Below are positions 172 through 9,023 of a stretch of DNA of 64,000 bases, piece after piece. This stretch comes from Lentisphaerae bacterium WC36 (GTDB taxonomy: Bacteria; Verrucomicrobiota; Lentisphaeria; Victivallales; SZUA-371): the NCBI GenBank assembly GCA_020683205.1, contig CP085689.1, positions 3,342,230 to 3,406,229 on the forward strand, written 5' to 3'. Position 1 is the first letter of the stretch; every line of letters starts with the position of its first letter. The notes below the pieces were generated by a model, which was not told the origin of the DNA, did no database searches, and was given only the letters and a program-made list of their open reading frames with translations. The position numbers and the translations under genes were made by a program.

Positions 172-2010
172 ATGATTAAAGATGCAAATGGGTTAATTGA
201 CTACACTGAGGCTTTGAAAAATCAAAGCAGTAGTGAGTTGAAATTGTACGTTTCAATGGGAACGTGTGGAATTGCTGCAGGAACGACACCTGTATTAAAT
301 AAAATTTACCAAACAATTGAAGAAAAAAATTTAAAAGATATTATTGATGTTGTTGAAGTTGGTTGTATGGGATTGTGCCATAGTGAACCATGTATTTGCT
401 TAGAAAACAAGGAAACGAATGAAAAAGTATATTATGGGAATTTAAGCGAAGAGCAAGTTGTTCAAATTTTAGAAGCTAAATTTGATACAGAGTTGGCTGG
501 AGCTAAAGTTTTAAATAAGACGTGGAATACTCCGGAAGATGAAGAAATCAGCGATCAAATTCAAACTCGTATTGTATTACGTAATAGCGGAGTAATTAAC
601 CCTGAAAAAATTGAAGATTACGTGATGCGAGACGGTTACAAGGCTTTAGCTAAAGCTTTAACAGAGATGAAACCTGCTGGAGTTGTGAGTGAAATTGAAT
701 TGTCAGGGCTTCGTGGTCGTGGTGGCGGTGGCTTCCCTACTGGAAGAAAATGGCAATTTGCTGCAAGCCAAGATGCCGATCAAAAATATTTAATTTGTAA
801 TGCTGACGAAGGTGATCCAGGCGCATTTATGGATCGTGCTGTTTTAGAGGGCGATCCGCATTCAGTTCTTGAGGCGATGGTGATTGCTGGGTACGGGATT
901 GGTGCTGATAAAGGATATATTTATATTCGTGCAGAATATCCACTAGCAATTAAACGTTTAGAAATTGCGATTGCTCAAGCAGAAGAATTAGGATTTTTAG
1001 GAGAAAATATTTTAGGAAGTGGTTTTAATTTCACTATTGAATTAAAATATGGTGCGGGAGCATTTGTTTGCGGAGAAGAAACAGCGTTAATTCATTCAAT
1101 TGAGGGTAAACGTGGTGAACCAACATTTAAGCCTCCTTTCCCTGCAATTAGTGGACTTTGGGGAAAACCAACGATTGTAAATAATGTTGAAACATTTGCG
1201 AATGTTGCAGCAATTATCCGTAATGGTGCAGATTGGTTTAAAAGTATCGGTACTGAAGGTTCTCCTGGTACGAAAGTTTTTGCTTTAGCAGGAAAAATTA
1301 ACAAGGTAGGTTTGGTTGAAGTACCTATGGGAACTGTTTTACGCGATATTATTTATGGACTAGGTCATGGTATTGTTGATGGACGTGAATTTAAAGCAGT
1401 GCAAACAGGAGGGCCATCTGGTGGCTGTATTAAGGCTGATAAATTAGATACTCCAATTGATTACGAATCATTAAAAGCATTAGGATCGATGATGGGATCT
1501 GGTGGTATGATCGTAATGGATGAAGATGATTGTATGGTTGATATTGCGAAATTCTTTTTAGATTTCACTTTAGAAGAGTCATGCGGAAAATGTACTCCAT
1601 GCCGTATTGGTAATACTCGTTTACATGAGTTACTAGAAGATATTTGTAGCGGAAATGGTACAATGGAGACGATTGAAAAATTAAAAACTTTATCAGCAGC
1701 GATTAAGGATACTGCACTTTGTGGACTTGGGCAAACTTCGCCAAATCCAGTTATTTCTACATTAAATAATTTTTACGACGAATATATGCAGCACGTTGAC
1801 CGCAAAAAATGTCCTGCAGGCGTATGTACTAAATTAGTTTCATATACAATTAACGACAAATGTGTTGGCTGTACATTGTGTGCTCGAAATTGCCCAGTTA
1901 GTTGTATTAGTGGTGAACGAAAAGAGTTGCATCATATTGATCAAAGTAAATGTATTAAATGTGGTGTTTGCTATACTGCTTGTAAATTCCACGCAATCGA
2001 CCGCACTTAA
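172..2010 (+). CDS. NuoF-like NADH-binding subunit of [FeFe] hydrogenase (HydB/HndC)
   Basis: The 612-residue protein is the flavin/NADH module of a multimeric [FeFe] hydrogenase. Domains in order: an N-terminal thioredoxin-like [2Fe-2S] region (about 20-100, cysteines in GTCG and GCMGLCHSEPC); a NuoF core with the FMN/NADH glycine-rich GLRGRGGGGFPTG near residue 179 and CNADEGDPGAF; a [4Fe-4S] site starting at C471 (CGKCTPC) completed by the cysteine in LCGLGQ; and a C-terminal 2x[4Fe-4S] ferredoxin domain starting at C564 (CVGCTLC) and C594 (CIKCGVC). This is the full arrangement of the electron-bifurcating HydB type. The start has an AGAGG site 11 bases upstream. It is followed after 24 bases by the catalytic subunit. 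Whether it bifurcates with ferredoxin or uses only NAD(P) cannot be read from sequence alone. Confidence 0.93.
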   Translation: MIKDANGLIDYTEALKNQSSSELKLYVSMGTCGIAAGTTPVLNKIYQTIEEKNLKDIIDVVEVGCMGLCHSEPCICLENKETNEKVYYGNLSEEQVVQILEAKFDTELAGAKVLNKTWNTPEDEEISDQIQTRIVLRNSGVINPEKIEDYVMRDGYKALAKALTEMKPAGVVSEIELSGLRGRGGGGFPTGRKWQFAASQDADQKYLICNADEGDPGAFMDRAVLEGDPHSVLEAMVIAGYGIGADKGYIYIRAEYPLAIKRLEIAIAQAEELGFLGENILGSGFNFTIELKYGAGAFVCGEETALIHSIEGKRGEPTFKPPFPAISGLWGKPTIVNNVETFANVAAIIRNGADWFKSIGTEGSPGTKVFALAGKINKVGLVEVPMGTVLRDIIYGLGHGIVDGREFKAVQTGGPSGGCIKADKLDTPIDYESLKALGSMMGSGGMIVMDEDDCMVDIAKFFLDFTLEESCGKCTPCRIGNTRLHELLEDICSGNGTMETIEKLKTLSAAIKDTALCGLGQTSPNPVISTLNNFYDEYMQHVDRKKCPAGVCTKLVSYTINDKCVGCTLCARNCPVSCISGERKELHHIDQSKCIKCGVCYTACKFHAIDRT

Positions 2011-2034
2011 TATTTAAAGATGGAGAAAATTAAA

Positions 2035-3771
2035 ATGTTTAATTTAAAAATAAATAATATTGATGTTACTGTCGAAGAAGGTTCGACGATATTGAATGCC
2101 GCTGAAAAAATTGGTATTAAAATTCCTACACTATGTCATATGTCTTTGGATTGCTTCGATGTGGAAAATCGAACAGGCTCATGTCGTATTTGTGTTGTTG
2201 AAGTTGCTAATCGTCCAAATTTAGCACCTGCGTGTTGTACGCCTGTTGTTGAAGGAATGGAGGTAAAAACTAATAGTATTCGTGCTATTAATGCACGCCG
2301 TACTATGCTTGATTTATTATTGAGCGACCATCCAAAAGAATGTTTGACATGTGCTAAAAATGGTAATTGTAGTTTGCAGGATTTGGCGGCTGAAATGGAT
2401 CTTCACCATGTTATGTATGAAGGCGCAATGTCAAAATATGAAATAGATTTAGCAAGTGAGGCAATTGTTCGAGACCTGAATAAATGCATTATGTGCCGCC
2501 GTTGTGAGACAGCTTGTAATACTATGCAAACAGTTGGTATTTTAACTGGAGCAAATCGCGGTTTTGAAGCAGTTGTTTCTCCAGCAAGCGGTAAGTCTTT
2601 AACAGAAACAAAGTGTGTGTTCTGTGGTCAATGTGTTTCAGCATGTCCAGTTGGCGCTCTAAGCGAAATGAACTACAAATATGATGTTTGGCGTGCAATT
2701 AATGATGAAAGTAAAACTGTTGTTGTTCAAACTGCACCTGCTGTACGTGTGGCAATTGGTGAAGAGCTTGGTCTTGAGGCAGGAGAAATTGCGACTGGTA
2801 AAATGGTTACAGCATTGAGAATGCTTGGTTTTGATAAGGTGTTTGATACTGACTTTGCTGCAGACTTAACAATTATGGAAGAAACTCATGAATTAATTGA
2901 GCGCGTTAAGGCTAACGAAAATTTACCAATTTTAACATCATGTTGTCCAGGGTGGGTAAAATTCTTTGAACATCAATTCCCTGAATTAATTTACATGCCT
3001 TCAACCGCAAAGTCTCCACAGCAAATGTTTGGAGCGATTACGAAAAGTTATTACGCTGAAAAAATTGGTAAAAAACCAGAAGATATTGTGGTGGTTTCAG
3101 TAATGCCATGTTTGGCAAAAAAATATGAAGCTTCACGTCCTGAGTTTGCTCCAAATGGTGTTCGTGATGTTGACATTGCGATTTCAACTCGTGAACTTGG
3201 TGATATGATCAAAGAGGCGGGTATACAATTCTCTAAACTTGATGATAGCGAATATGATAATCCATTAGGTGAATCTACTGGCGCTGCGGTAATTTTTGGA
3301 GCTTCAGGAGGTGTTCTTGAGGCGGCATTACGTACGGCTGCAGATTGGTTGACAAATGAAGATCTTAAAGATATTGATTTTGAAGCGGTGCGCGGACTTG
3401 AAGGTTCTAAAGAAGCAACGGTTAATGTTGCGGGACTTGATCTAAAAGTTGCAGTTGTTTCAGGTCTTGGTAATGCTCGTAAGTTATTGGAGCGTATTAA
3501 AAATGGCGAATCAGAATACCATGCAATCGAAATTATGGCATGTCCAGGGGGTTGTTTAAATGGTGGAGGTCAGCCATATATTCATGAAGATACTTCAATT
3601 TTAGAAAAACGTAAAGAAGCTATTTATCGTGAAGATTCAGGCAAAGAAATTCGTAAATCTCATGAAAATCCGTATATTAAGCAGTTATATAGCGAATTTT
3701 TAACTGAGCCAGGAAGTCCTCTTGCTCATAAATTGCTTCATACTAAATATGAGGCACGTGAAAACGTTTAA
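2035..3771 (+). CDS. [FeFe] hydrogenase catalytic subunit (HydA/HndD type)
   Basis: Reversible H2 production at the H-cluster in the cytoplasm. The order is a plant-type [2Fe-2S] domain (cysteines in TLCHM, TGSCRICVVEV, CCTPVV), the His-Cys3 cluster (HPKECLTCAKNGNC), two [4Fe-4S] sites (CIMCRRCETAC, CVFCGQCVSACP), then the H-cluster signatures TSCCPGW (C303/C304), MPCLAKK (C359) and MACPGGCLNGGGQP (C503, C507), and a small-subunit-like tail. An in-frame ATG at 2020 exists, but the ATG at 2035 has the ribosome site GGAG 9 bases upstream and gives the usual N-terminus, so 2035 was chosen (578 residues). The size and domains match the group A3 trimeric or tetrameric NAD-linked enzymes. No maturases (HydEFG) are in the window. 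Confidence 0.95.
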   Translation: MFNLKINNIDVTVEEGSTILNAAEKIGIKIPTLCHMSLDCFDVENRTGSCRICVVEVANRPNLAPACCTPVVEGMEVKTNSIRAINARRTMLDLLLSDHPKECLTCAKNGNCSLQDLAAEMDLHHVMYEGAMSKYEIDLASEAIVRDLNKCIMCRRCETACNTMQTVGILTGANRGFEAVVSPASGKSLTETKCVFCGQCVSACPVGALSEMNYKYDVWRAINDESKTVVVQTAPAVRVAIGEELGLEAGEIATGKMVTALRMLGFDKVFDTDFAADLTIMEETHELIERVKANENLPILTSCCPGWVKFFEHQFPELIYMPSTAKSPQQMFGAITKSYYAEKIGKKPEDIVVVSVMPCLAKKYEASRPEFAPNGVRDVDIAISTRELGDMIKEAGIQFSKLDDSEYDNPLGESTGAAVIFGASGGVLEAALRTAADWLTNEDLKDIDFEAVRGLEGSKEATVNVAGLDLKVAVVSGLGNARKLLERIKNGESEYHAIEIMACPGGCLNGGGQPYIHEDTSILEKRKEAIYREDSGKEIRKSHENPYIKQLYSEFLTEPGSPLAHKLLHTKYEARENV

Positions 3772-3797
3772 AATGCATTTAGCTTAATTTTTATAAG

Positions 3798-3845
3798 AAA
3801 GCATAAAGCTATTTTGTGTATGGGATAGCTTTATGCTTTTGTTTT
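3798..3845 (+). terminator. Rho-independent terminator after hydrogenase operon
   Basis: A perfect 15-base-pair stem (3798-3812 with 3825-3839) and a 12-base loop are followed by a T-rich tail. It lies 27 bases after the hydrogenase stop. The run of A before the stem means it could also stop the convergent tail-fibre operon from the other strand. Confidence 0.85.
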
Positions 3846-3868
3846 TCATAAAAAGGAATTGAATTTTT

Positions 3869-4249
3869 TTATGATAAATCTTTAGTTAATTCTTCAATAA
3901 TAATTGCTGTTGTTAGATCATTGTCTTCATCATTAATAATTTGTAATGCCTCAGCCGTTATTTCATCATTAAGATCGATTTCATTTGCGTCAGCCCAGTC
4001 TTTTGAAAATTCAAGGTGGCTTGCTAACAATTCATCAAGAACATTTTCTTTATTTAATGCCCGAAATGCCCGCCTAATATGCAATTTAGTAAAAATGGTT
4101 TGTTGTGGTTCGGTTGGAGGATCTAGGAGAGTATTGCCCTCGGATAGCCACTTTAAATAATTTTGATAATCGGCATTACGTTCATCAATTGGAATTATTG
4201 CTCCGTCATTAATTCTTTCAATTTGTGTATTATTTAATTTTTGATACAT
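3869..4249 (-). CDS. Small phage tail-fibre-associated protein (putative chaperone)
   Basis: 126 residues, acidic, no signal or membrane segment. The N-terminal half carries the pattern IPIDERNADYQNYLKWLSEG followed by NT and a proline-rich stretch. This ('D-x-x-N-x-D-Y-x-x-Y-L-x-W-x-x-E-G-N-T') is common in short proteins encoded directly after phage tail fibres and often called tail-fibre assembly proteins. The C-terminal half (FTKLHIRRAFRAL, KDWADANEIDLNDE) resembles small tail proteins. It begins 15 bases after the tail-fibre stop with its own AAGGAAAA ribosome site, so the two are co-transcribed. The function is inferred from context and the short motif only; it may be a fibre-folding chaperone or a minor tail component. 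Confidence 0.6.
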   Translation of the reverse strand: MYQKLNNTQIERINDGAIIPIDERNADYQNYLKWLSEGNTLLDPPTEPQQTIFTKLHIRRAFRALNKENVLDELLASHLEFSKDWADANEIDLNDEITAEALQIINDEDNDLTTAIIIEELTKDLS

Positions 4250-4264
4250 AATATTTTCCTTCTT

Positions 4265-6310
4265 TTAGTATTGTATTTCTGAATTATATAAATAGTTGTC
4301 TCCGTGAGCAGTAATAGTCGGCGTTGCTCGCATATTTGTTCTTAAGTCGACATCTTCTACGTTATTAGAACTTCTAATTTGAGTATATTTTTGGCATCTT
4401 AATACTTCTAAAGTTTGTTCAACTTCAACAACTCCACAATACTTTTTACCATCATTGACAATTAAATTTTCAATCTTATTATTAGCTTCAGAACAATTAA
4501 ATTTAAACCAAATTTCTTTGTAGTCGTCAACTGATAAATTTGTTAAATCAAACAATGCTGAACTGTCCTCTTGTGAAGTAGGATCTAGTACTGTATTGCT
4601 GTTATCATTTGCTTTTAAAATAATTTGCTTACTCATTAATGCGCTTGAAATATTAGTTAAAGTGCAAAAATTGCCAAATAAATTTGCTCGGTCAATACTA
4701 TCAAAACCTTGCAATATGTCATAATTACCATTTTGTTCTTCGAAAGTATAACCTTCAAGCTCTCCTACAGCTACGGTTGTAGCATAACTAGAGGTTATTT
4801 TTACTCCCCAAGCTGTAGCATTAGATGGTATTGCTGTATCTAAAAACCACTCTTTAGATTCGTTAGCCGAAGAAAAACCAGTAACATTGATAGTCAAAGC
4901 CACAATGTATTCCTCAGTTAATAACGCACTATCAACATTATCAAAGTTACTCATGTTTGCCATAGTATATATAACTTGAAAACTTTTTGGAGCATTATAT
5001 GAGCCTGAATTACGAGTAGTTAATTTGATTTTATCTATCTTTTTTCCTTCACATGCTCTTAATAATACTGCTGTTGTCTTATTGCTAGCACTGTTCCAGC
5101 TATTACTATTACTATTATCTTTATTAAAGGCATTTATTGGTAATAGTGTGCTACTATAAGAACTACTAGCCCAACATTTAGAACTATTACTCATCGCATC
5201 AGGATAAGCGTCAATAATTGAACCCGTTTTAACATTATAGCCCGTTTTATCCAAATTCTCACTTATGAGAGCTGAGTTACCATCAGGAATATTCCATAGA
5301 TGTCTATCTCCCCAGTACTCCAAAACGCCTGATAACTCTTTACTTTTTAAATTATCAACATTGTATTGATTGATAGCTCGATTAGGGTTTATCCATAAAT
5401 TATGTTTTGGCGCATGATAACTATTTTGGTGAGCTTCAATTTCAGTGTTTAAATCACTGTGCGAATGCTCTTTAGTTGCGTAACGTTGGTCATTTTCGCT
5501 ATTGTGGTTATGTGAATGTGTAGCAATTTCTGATTTTTGCTCTTCGGTCATGTCATTAAAAGTAAAAGGATCACCTTTATCACCTTTTTCTCCGGTATCG
5601 CCAGTATCGCCTTTTAACCCCAAAAGTTGTTCAGGTGTAAAATCCTCATAAATAAAAGGATCACCTTTGTCACCAGTTTCCCCCTTGTCGCCCTTTAATG
5701 ATTCTTTTTGTTCTTCTGTTAGATCAGAAAAAATCATAGTTCCATCTGCGCCTTTGTCTCCTGTATCACCTTTATCACCTTTAAGTAAATTGAGTTCAAC
5801 TTTAGAAGTCCAACTAGCACCTGAGTCAAAACTGAAACGAACAAATTTTGTTCCAACGCTACTAGCACTAGAGAACCAGTTTGTTCCATCGAAAGAATAT
5901 TCAATTAATGGTGTGAACAGCACTGTTTGATTATCTAGTTGCTCGTAATTGAATTTATTATTTTGAATTAGAATTTCATCATTAATCAGTAATTTTTCAT
6001 TAGAAACATCCCATAATAAAATATTAAAATTTAATGTTGCAGAAATTTTTTGATACTTAAAAAACTCGGCTATTTCAAGTGAATCTAGTTTCATATCAAA
6101 ACTTATTATATTGCCAAGACAACTTTGTTCATAAATTGCTACAACTTTATTACTTTTTAGTATCAATAATTTAAATGTGTTGCTCTCCGTAATGTTTGTT
6201 GAATTATGGAAATTCATGATTATTGATTCATTAACAGCACATACTCCATCAGTTTTGGTTATTTTTCGCTTAAATGTGTCGCAAAAAAAGTTAATAACTT
6301 TTTTTTTCAT
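4265..6310 (-). CDS. Phage-type tail fibre / collagen-like repeat protein
   Basis: 681 residues, no signal peptide. Residues 1-170 form a domain of unknown type. Three collagen-like Gly-X-Y blocks (about 174-188, 204-218 and 231-247: KGDKGDTGDKGADG, KGDKGETGDKGDP, KGDTGDTGEKGDKGDP) alternate with repeated linkers (DLTEEQKESL, DFTPEQLLGL, DMTEEQKSEI). A His/Asn-rich segment (HSHNHNSENDQRYATKEHSH), characteristic of phage fibres, follows. Residues about 367-520 resemble a discoidin-like carbohydrate-binding fold (CWASSSYSSTLLPINAFN). The C-terminus (LEVLRCQKYTQ, DVDLRTNMRATPTI) matches the end of many receptor-binding tail proteins. The ATG has AAGGAG upstream. No other phage structural, integrase or lysis gene lies nearby, so this is an orphan pair. 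It could be a prophage relic, a fibre for a tailocin or contractile system encoded elsewhere, or a cell-surface collagen-like protein. Confidence 0.7.
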   Translation of the reverse strand: MKKKVINFFCDTFKRKITKTDGVCAVNESIIMNFHNSTNITESNTFKLLILKSNKVVAIYEQSCLGNIISFDMKLDSLEIAEFFKYQKISATLNFNILLWDVSNEKLLINDEILIQNNKFNYEQLDNQTVLFTPLIEYSFDGTNWFSSASSVGTKFVRFSFDSGASWTSKVELNLLKGDKGDTGDKGADGTMIFSDLTEEQKESLKGDKGETGDKGDPFIYEDFTPEQLLGLKGDTGDTGEKGDKGDPFTFNDMTEEQKSEIATHSHNHNSENDQRYATKEHSHSDLNTEIEAHQNSYHAPKHNLWINPNRAINQYNVDNLKSKELSGVLEYWGDRHLWNIPDGNSALISENLDKTGYNVKTGSIIDAYPDAMSNSSKCWASSSYSSTLLPINAFNKDNSNSNSWNSASNKTTAVLLRACEGKKIDKIKLTTRNSGSYNAPKSFQVIYTMANMSNFDNVDSALLTEEYIVALTINVTGFSSANESKEWFLDTAIPSNATAWGVKITSSYATTVAVGELEGYTFEEQNGNYDILQGFDSIDRANLFGNFCTLTNISSALMSKQIILKANDNSNTVLDPTSQEDSSALFDLTNLSVDDYKEIWFKFNCSEANNKIENLIVNDGKKYCGVVEVEQTLEVLRCQKYTQIRSSNNVEDVDLRTNMRATPTITAHGDNYLYNSEIQY

Positions 6311-6491
6311 GATTGCTCCTTAAATATTTACACCCCTGCAAAATAATTAAAGAAATTATTATTAATATATTATACATTTGTATATATTCAAGATAATTTT
6401 CTTTTTTTTTGAAAAAATTGTAATGAATAAATAATTATGATATATTAAAAATATTAGTTATTATCTGTGGAATTTTAATTGGGAGAAATTT

Positions 6492-9023
6492 ATGAAAAAG
6501 AAATTTTTTATGGTCGGGAGTTTTATAAGCTTATTATTGGTGGCTTTAAGTCTCAATGGGGAACAAATATCATCTGATAGTACGGTTGAGCCATGGTCTT
6601 CAACGCCAACACCTAGAAAAATGATACTAACAGAGACAGAGTCTAAATTAGTTGCAAAGTTACGTGTTTTGGAGCAAGATTTACAGCAATTAAAAACTGA
6701 TCATACTACTTTTGTAAAAGAAAATATTTCTTACAGTAAATTTGCCATATATAAACTACTTCTAAGTAATCATTACAAGTTTTATGAAAAAATATTACAA
6801 AAAAGAAAAAGTGTTTTTGAAAAAAAATTGACAGAACATGCCGATGTTAAATATTTAAATGAAGAATTTGCATATCGTTATCAAAGAAAGTTAATTTCAG
6901 TATGTCATAGCTTTTATGACAAACCTTCTTTCTTACTAAAAAACTTTAAAAGAGAAGGGCTTTTTTTTAGGAAGAAATTTCAAGAAAATTTAAAGACCCC
7001 AAAAAGTAATAATTCTAATAATAAAATTGTGATAGTGGACTTTTTTAATGAAAATGATACGCTAATTAAAAAAGCTGCACAATTAGATTTTTTAACAAAA
7101 ATATGTGATAAGGTGCTAAAAAAAGAAAGTATTGATAGTGCTAATAAGTTCAATGAAAAAATAACAAAATTTAATAAACAGCTATTTGCATTAGATAACG
7201 AATTTGATTTGAAAAAATCTGATGATGCGAACATTCGCGAAAATCTTCGTGCTAGATATTGGAAGATTTGTTTAGAAACCATTCCGCTGTTTTTAAACAT
7301 TAAAGGTTTTAACACTTTTATGATAGATGACTATACGCTATATGGTTTTAATATTTTATTGCAAAGAGATGATATTAAAAAGGCTATAGCTGAAGATGAA
7401 TGGTTGCAAAAAGTGATAATTTTTACTTTTCATCGCCTAGATAAAAAAAATGAAAGCTTTAATGGTTCAGCATTGTTAAATTTTGAATACCCAACAGCGA
7501 ATAGTATCGCCCATCTCAATAATATGGAATTATTAGCTGCTTACCACAGTGACTACTATAATGAAGTAAATAATTTTTCGCAACTAAATCATGAACTTCT
7601 TAAGAATTTTAATCAAAGATTAAATTTAAGCTCTAAAAATGCACTTCAACCTCGTGATTTGATGCCAATTGTAAGAGTTGTTAAAAGGAAATCTTCGGCT
7701 ATTATTGAAGCGATGTTTCCAGATATTGATGCCGATGTTGAGAATTTATATAGCAGAAAATTAACAAATAAATTTAGAAAAAAAAGTCAAGTAAGCAAAA
7801 ATAGAAAAACAAAAGGTGTAGAAAATTACCAAGCGAATTTGCAGGATAATTTTTATTATGATTCAGTAAAGTCATTTTGTGAGTTTATTAAACATAATTA
7901 TGCTTTCTTAAAATATAAAAACATTGATTGGAAGTCAATTACAGAGAAAGCCCTTGAAGGTGTTAAGAAAATAAAAAATGATCAAGATTTTGGAATTTTT
8001 ATGTTAGAATTGGTGGCAAAACTTGAAGATAGTCATTCACATTTATTACCAGGTAATAAAAAAATTGATTTCAAAATTGAATTTCCTCGCTATTCAAGCG
8101 GGTTTGCTTGCTTAGAAGATAAAGATAAAAATTTGGTAGTTTATTTTATTAATCCAAATAGTAGTGCGGCTCGTTCATCGTTGCAATATGGTGATATTAT
8201 TTTAAATATTGATGGGGTCGATGTAGCAGAATTAGTCAAAAATTTTGAGCAAAAATTAAGCAAATACTCTGGTTGGTCGAGTGAAAGATATTTACATTAC
8301 AGCGCGATTCGTTGTTTTAACAGAGTAGCAGATTATAATCAAGAGCAAGAGATAGTCGTTAAAAAGATCGATGGTTCGACAAAAAAAATGACACTACAAA
8401 CTGATTGTAAAGTTGGTTATATTAACCGTTTACCTGTGCAGATTTCTGGGATTTATGACTCAGGAAGTGTTTCTTGGGTGAAATTACCTAACGAGAATAT
8501 TGGTTATATTTATGTGCGCAGAATTAGAAACGATTTAGAAAAAAGTCTAGATAAGGCATTACAAAGTTTAGAAGATATTGACGGGCTTATTATTGATGTA
8601 AGAGGAAATTCAGGGGGTGGGTTTGATATGCAAACTGCATATGTTAATTTTGATTTGGAGAATAAAAAAAATCAGCAAAATAGACCTGTTTATAAAGGGA
8701 AAATTGCTATTTTAATCGATCAACGCTGTATTAGTGCTGGAGAAGGGTGGAGTTCATGGTTTAAAAGACATAAAAGAGCTAAATTTTTTGGAAAAACTAC
8801 AGCAGGAGCTTCTGCACGTAAAACGGTTTATAAACTAGAGAATGGACTTTTTAAAGTACGAATGTCGGTTAAAGGTTATTGTGGCTTCTTAGATAGATTA
8901 ATTGAACGTCGTGGAATTGAGCCTGATGTTGAAGTCGATTACCTTGCCAGCGATATTGCGATTGGTAAAGATTCAATTTTAGATGCTGCAAAAGAGTGGT
9001 TAGTTGAAAATAAAAATAGATAA
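6492..9023 (+). CDS. Secreted S41-family peptidase with PDZ domain
   Basis: 843 residues. A signal peptide (about 1-24) is followed by some 500 residues of lysine-rich, mostly helical sequence that I do not recognise. Then come a PDZ-like domain (about 530-610, containing NPNSSAARSSLQYGDIIL) and a C-terminal S41 (tail-specific/C-terminal processing type) peptidase domain. Core motifs are DGLIIDVRGNSGGGFD (from 697), the putative nucleophile S748 in QRCISAGEG and K768 in FGKTTAG. The protein ends with the family's typical GIEPDVEVDY. A GGGAG site precedes the ATG. It probably cleaves or senses envelope proteins. The long N-terminal part is unusual, since most CtpA/Prc enzymes have a short one. 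It stands alone, with a weak hairpin after the stop. Confidence 0.85.
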   Translation: MKKKFFMVGSFISLLLVALSLNGEQISSDSTVEPWSSTPTPRKMILTETESKLVAKLRVLEQDLQQLKTDHTTFVKENISYSKFAIYKLLLSNHYKFYEKILQKRKSVFEKKLTEHADVKYLNEEFAYRYQRKLISVCHSFYDKPSFLLKNFKREGLFFRKKFQENLKTPKSNNSNNKIVIVDFFNENDTLIKKAAQLDFLTKICDKVLKKESIDSANKFNEKITKFNKQLFALDNEFDLKKSDDANIRENLRARYWKICLETIPLFLNIKGFNTFMIDDYTLYGFNILLQRDDIKKAIAEDEWLQKVIIFTFHRLDKKNESFNGSALLNFEYPTANSIAHLNNMELLAAYHSDYYNEVNNFSQLNHELLKNFNQRLNLSSKNALQPRDLMPIVRVVKRKSSAIIEAMFPDIDADVENLYSRKLTNKFRKKSQVSKNRKTKGVENYQANLQDNFYYDSVKSFCEFIKHNYAFLKYKNIDWKSITEKALEGVKKIKNDQDFGIFMLELVAKLEDSHSHLLPGNKKIDFKIEFPRYSSGFACLEDKDKNLVVYFINPNSSAARSSLQYGDIILNIDGVDVAELVKNFEQKLSKYSGWSSERYLHYSAIRCFNRVADYNQEQEIVVKKIDGSTKKMTLQTDCKVGYINRLPVQISGIYDSGSVSWVKLPNENIGYIYVRRIRNDLEKSLDKALQSLEDIDGLIIDVRGNSGGGFDMQTAYVNFDLENKKNQQNRPVYKGKIAILIDQRCISAGEGWSSWFKRHKRAKFFGKTTAGASARKTVYKLENGLFKVRMSVKGYCGFLDRLIERRGIEPDVEVDYLASDIAIGKDSILDAAKEWLVENKNR

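Follow-up and report, generated by a model that had tools for sequence, protein, structure and literature searches.

In the Alteromonas phages V22 (gp26/gp27), A5 and P24, a tail fibre gene is followed by a small gene whose product is a fibre chaperone. The V22 chaperone, gp27, is a DUF4376 intermolecular chaperone that is required for a functional fibre, and its homologue in A5 has been proposed to act as a transient cap. Fibre-chaperone modules of the V22 type are common to podo-, sipho- and myoviruses (PMC7289586, PMC10579305). Collagen-like phage proteins are known from E. coli O157:H7, where EPclA and EPclB form trimers and carry a collagen-like shaft between phage N- and C-terminal domains (PMC3368898).

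Here, we describe a gene pair that resembles both systems, found in a 64-kb stretch of a bacterial chromosome (the whole stretch is referred to as the window). As in V22, A5 and P24, a fibre gene precedes a small partner gene, and as in EPclA and EPclB, the fibre has a collagen-like shaft between its N- and C-terminal domains. However, EPclA and EPclB have PF08400 and PF06820 end domains, neither of which was matched by the window fibre in Pfam searches, and their genes are located within prophages. Unlike the partners in V22, A5 and P24, the window partner has no Pfam match to DUF4376 (PF14301), carries another C-domain and lies outside any phage, and its chaperone function is putative. Judging from sequence comparisons, we give a probability of roughly 70% to the reading that the pair is a stray but intact, stand-alone phage host-recognition cassette, consisting of a tail fibre and its cognate accessory or chaperone-like partner. 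Such a cassette is most likely of a kind that is already known, namely a horizontally shuffled fibre with its accessory module, and not a new system. The features of the locus are as follows (window positions, strand in brackets).

3797..3840 (.): palindromic terminator-like hairpin with 15-bp perfect arms, between the convergent hydrogenase and fibre operons; could serve both strands
3869..4249 (-): small fibre-accessory or chaperone-like (putative) partner gene, 126 aa, intact
3881..4093 (-): partner C-domain, aa 53-123, FTKLHIRRAF...DWADANEIDLND; conserved in every copy of the partner in this genome
4097..4249 (-): partner N-module, aa 1-51, IERINDGAIIPIDERNADYQNYLKWLSEGN; common to genes directly 3' of tail fibres in unrelated phages
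4265..6310 (-): tail-fibre or receptor-binding-protein gene, 681 aa, intact
4268..4726 (-): C-terminal fibre domain; aa 529-647 share 60% identity with the L018 prophage fibre
4727..5227 (-): candidate discoidin (F5/8 type C)-like domain, an insert with a sub-threshold Pfam match; missing in four aligned prophage fibres
5228..5536 (-): segment common to the L018 prophage fibre, HxH...NLWINPN.AINQYN...DRHxW; 52% over aa 245-361
5537..5782 (-): three Gly-X-Y blocks of collagen type, interspersed with D-x-T-x-E-Q linkers
5783..6310 (-): fibre N-terminus, aa 1-176; aa 136-173 hold the motif YSFDG..W...RFSFD.G.SW, as in L019/L020-type fibres
6311..6491 (-): AT-rich divergent intergenic region; includes AAGGAG as ribosome-binding site of the fibre, and promoter-like hexamers that are as frequent as expected by chance

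Architecture of the fibre

A preliminary description of this DNA had read the larger gene as a fibre of 681 residues with three collagen-like blocks, 'D-x-T-x-E-Q' linkers, a discoidin-like region and a phage-type C-terminus. The ORF is present and uninterrupted, and both the blocks, which are short, and the three linkers (DLTEEQ, DFTPEQ and DMTEEQ) can be read in its translation. The same linker type occurs in prophage fibres of this genome (L019 and L020) and in an order-level relative (G031). The C-terminus carries the phage-type motif ...LRCQKY...MRATPTIT, and its identity to the resident L018 fibre agrees with the earlier assignment. The discoidin-like region stands less firmly: Pfam F5_F8_type_C does match at aa 380-461 (E 2.8e-4), but its 21.4 bits fall below the gathering cut-off of 28.2.

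The N-terminus could be aligned to the L019/L020-type N-termini within the aa 136-173 motif only, and its overall similarity to that family is marginal (8.5 bits by HMM and 1.9% probability by hhalign). The window fibre joins a largely unassigned aa 1-135, the L019/L020 motif, linkers of a shared type, a discoidin-like insert and a C-terminus that is closest to L018. Tail-fibre families of PHROGs match the collagen part of the fibre; as Gly-X-Y repeats match many unrelated models, this match would be weak as sole evidence. An AlphaFold model of the last 380 residues, made as a single chain without alignment, reached a pLDDT of 33, which is too poor for a structure search.

In a phage, the N-terminus would attach the fibre to the tail, and the shaft would be a triple helix made of the collagen-like blocks. 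Binding of surface glycans would fall to the C-terminal head and the discoidin-like insert. We infer a trimeric receptor-binding fibre that would travel with a small accessory or chaperone protein, and the partner may help to mature or cap the C-terminal end of the fibre.

The partner gene

The partner starts 15 nt after the fibre, a spacing that includes an AAGGA ribosome site. Relatives of its N-module are encoded directly 3' of fibre genes in Pseudomonas putida podophages, Acidovorax phage ACP17 and Synechococcus phage B23. In B23, the 5.7-kb gene upstream of the partner relative is annotated merely as hypothetical. The small gene had previously been called tail-fibre-assembly-like. Its phage homologues 3' of fibres place it among tail-associated genes, but it matches no Pfam family at E up to 1, including those for Tfa/gp38 assembly proteins and Phage_tail_APC. 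One phage relative of the partner has a weak match to PF16778 (E 0.027). Both a phage origin for the fibre and a tail association for the partner are well supported.

A connection to the V22-type chaperones appears in an order-level relative (G136), where the N-module of the window partner is fused to DUF4376 (E 1.5e-6), in a gene with a PF12571 fibre on one side and a sheath-like gene on the other. As the window partner itself lacks DUF4376, its chaperone role is suggested by analogy and not by family membership. An AlphaFold model of the partner without alignment was too poor for a structure search (pLDDT 49), and PDB sequence searches gave nothing useful.

An isolated pair of phage-type genes

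The pair is flanked by hydrogenase genes on one side (172-3771, + strand) and by an S41/PDZ peptidase on the other (6492-9023). The peptidase has a hydrophobic N-terminus, in agreement with the hydrogenase genes and secreted peptidase previously named as borders of the pair. The peptidase itself has 843 aa with a long N-terminal region, and the relatives that were searched match its C-terminal part only, mostly at ~30% identity. Terminator-like palindromic sites such as that at 3797..3840 are as frequent as expected by chance.

The earlier observation that no integrase, capsid, tail tube, lysis gene or att-like repeat is visible around the pair was upheld. No further phage genes were recognised among the ORFs of the window, and no fragments of neighbouring phage genes in the 97-nt and 181-nt flanks or beyond. 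None of the 27 integrase-domain hits of the genome lies in the window, and no convincing att-like direct repeats flank the locus. Near the locus there is no tRNA that could have served as an integration site, and positions 3700-6700 have no Rfam match. With nothing else of phage type recognised across the 64 kb of the window, the pair is classed as an isolated cassette of phage descent and not as a prophage component.

The source genus is represented by a single genome, and the junction was compared with two relatives from the same family (G002 and G003). These share the hydrogenase genes (77-78%), whereas their downstream genes differ from the window and from each other. Since different genes follow the hydrogenase operon in both relatives, they give no date for the insertion.

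Resident prophages carry the same pair

The preliminary description had called for a search for further copies of the pair, and six were found in the genome, which is a single contig of 3.66 Mb. Fibre homologues are located at 1.746, 2.309, 1.248, 1.255 and 3.521 Mb and across the contig start, and at each of these six places a partner homologue lies directly downstream, in the same gene order as in the window. All six lie among phage genes, in at least five prophage regions (L018, L019, L020, L021 and L041/L042). The genome is strikingly rich in prophages, and two of its 27 Phage_integrase domain hits are below the curated cut-off.

In L021, a major head protein and Baseplate_J are followed by the fibre, the partner and a tail sheath. 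L019 encodes an integrase and a tape measure of 1138 aa; no sheath was seen in the stretch that was read. L020 contains a terminase, a portal and an integrase together with two copies of the pair in opposite orientation; these are ~7 kb apart (L020:7483-16963), and the second fibre is frameshifted. In L018, a 2346-aa protein that matches phrog_9880 lies directly 5' of the fibre, as in podovirus-like phages. The contractile-type prophage that spans the contig start holds Baseplate_J, a tape measure and a terminase. Its fibre and partner frames (L041:19080-19784 and L042:1-709) are each frameshifted, which may reflect decay or sequencing error. From this gene content, the resident prophages would include contractile tails, tails with a tape measure but no sheath seen, and podovirus-like tails.

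Downstream of the prophage pairs come late genes, among them small membrane and lipoprotein genes, which places the pairs near the end of the tail operon. The resident copies share the homologous fibre C-terminus and the partner with the window pair, and sit among tail, late and packaging genes, several of them with recognisable tail-type N-termini. In contrast, the window copy stands alone and has the discoidin-like insert.

The suggestion that the pair supplies a tailocin or contractile system elsewhere in the genome that lacks a fibre found no support, as every tail cluster that was found has its own pair. Searches with the Pfam families Baseplate_J and PhageMin_Tail yielded no fibre-less tail cluster in the genome, a census that is not exhaustive, as PhageMin_Tail missed the tape-measure-like gene of L021. 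Each of the two Baseplate_J clusters has its own fibre and partner, and so has each of the two tape-measure clusters identified with confidence.

Exchange of modules between tail types

Among the prophage fibres, the N-termini vary with tail type, whereas the C-terminal head and the partner are common to them. The L021 fibre begins with PF12571 (E 1.8e-47), the L018 fibre has a weak match to the T7-tail family PF03906, and those of L019 and L020 belong to a third family that also occurs in order-level relatives. The L019 and L020 copies have near-identical C-termini and partners. As resident prophages carry these behind different N-termini, exchange of fibre C-termini and partners does happen in this genome. 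The L018 partner (L018:10244-10825) joins a different N-module to the common C-domain, pointing to recombination within the partner gene.

A single genome thus holds homologous fibre heads and partners on contractile-type, podovirus-type and third-type N-termini. This clear natural case of modules for host recognition passing between unrelated phages says more than the lone copy does by itself. What the lone copy adds is that the two genes can survive together as a unit, which is consistent with a mutual dependence of the two proteins.

Age and constraint of the lone copy

DNA matches between the lone pair and the resident copies are short and mostly of 70-84% identity. For the partner C-domain, pS is 0.73 and pN is 0.15 against the resident copies, and for the fibre C-terminus these values are 0.62 and 0.24. 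Synonymous sites are near saturation, while amino-acid changes are far fewer. The short matches and the near-saturated synonymous sites indicate that the lone copy is an old, divergent member of the group, which did not arise by recent duplication from a resident prophage. As pN is far below pS, the genes of the pair evolved under constraint at the protein level. This constraint spans the whole divergence, most of which may have taken place in phages, and is no proof of selection at the present site.

GC3 is 0.218 for the fibre, compared with 0.231 +/- 0.028 for host genes and 0.259 +/- 0.034 for prophage genes. By codon-usage score, the fibre is host-like and the partner phage-like, so codon usage does not separate the possible origins.

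Origin and possible roles of the pair

We read the lone pair as a relic or translocated cassette, for which an active role is possible. The pair would most likely have moved as a two-gene unit from a phage that was not closely related to the resident ones. What counts against this reading is that no prophage remnant, integrase or att site is left at the locus to show the route. The same observation bears on the idea that the pair is the edge of a decayed prophage, the rest of which was deleted in place. That the genome is so rich in prophages and integrase-domain hits, and that the resident pairs sit near the end of the tail operon, would suit such a decay. However, decay usually leaves more than exactly two intact genes, and with neither a phage-gene fragment in or beyond the short flanks nor an att repeat, we consider this origin doubtful. 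A collagen-like adhesin on the bacterial surface was a further option raised earlier; the small gene would then encode a factor for its assembly, and collagen blocks with a discoidin-like domain would suit such an adhesin. Yet the weak matches to Scl/Lcl adhesin models in NCBIfam reach 20-29 bits against cut-offs of 325-500 and are due to the Gly-X-Y repeats, and the partner and the fibre C-terminus are of phage-tail types. The fibre N-terminus has no hydrophobic export segment (best 12-mer hydropathy 1.26, compared with 2.56 in the adjacent S41 peptidase). As an export signal is lacking, a secreted adhesin is very improbable.

The pair might also be a domesticated or spare cassette with its own expression, whose fibre is built into resident tails or whose C-terminus is recombined into prophage fibres, thereby widening their targets. 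Exchange of C-termini and partners does occur among the resident prophages, and since the intact pair comes with ribosome sites of its own and with a possible promoter region and possible terminator, it would not need a phage late operon. The promoter-like sites are at chance level, however, and the modest identity to resident DNA speaks against recent exchange, so that we regard a spare cassette as unlikely. Supply of the fibre in trans to resident tails is not favoured, as the tail clusters found have their own fibre and partner and the window N-terminus fits no resident tail type clearly. The more specific idea of a retained, independently expressed fibre reservoir, which would give the tails of one or more unrelated resident prophages an alternative receptor-binding tip with an additional discoidin-like lectin domain, seems quite unlikely. 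Returning to the stray host-recognition cassette, both lone ORFs are intact, whereas two prophage copies are frameshifted, which could reflect selection rather than passive leftover.

Relatives in other genomes

The order-level sample comprised 137 genomes, many of which are fragmented. Scans of IMG/VR and GTDB contigs by short peptide patterns confirmed no relatives. Within the same family, a contig of G003 (C251; L076:11218-13101) encodes a 627-aa collagen fibre with an N-terminus of the L019/L020 type. It starts 266 nt from a divergent phosphofructokinase-like host gene, and the contig ends soon after. It could be a further case of a lone fibre, from a different genus of the same family.
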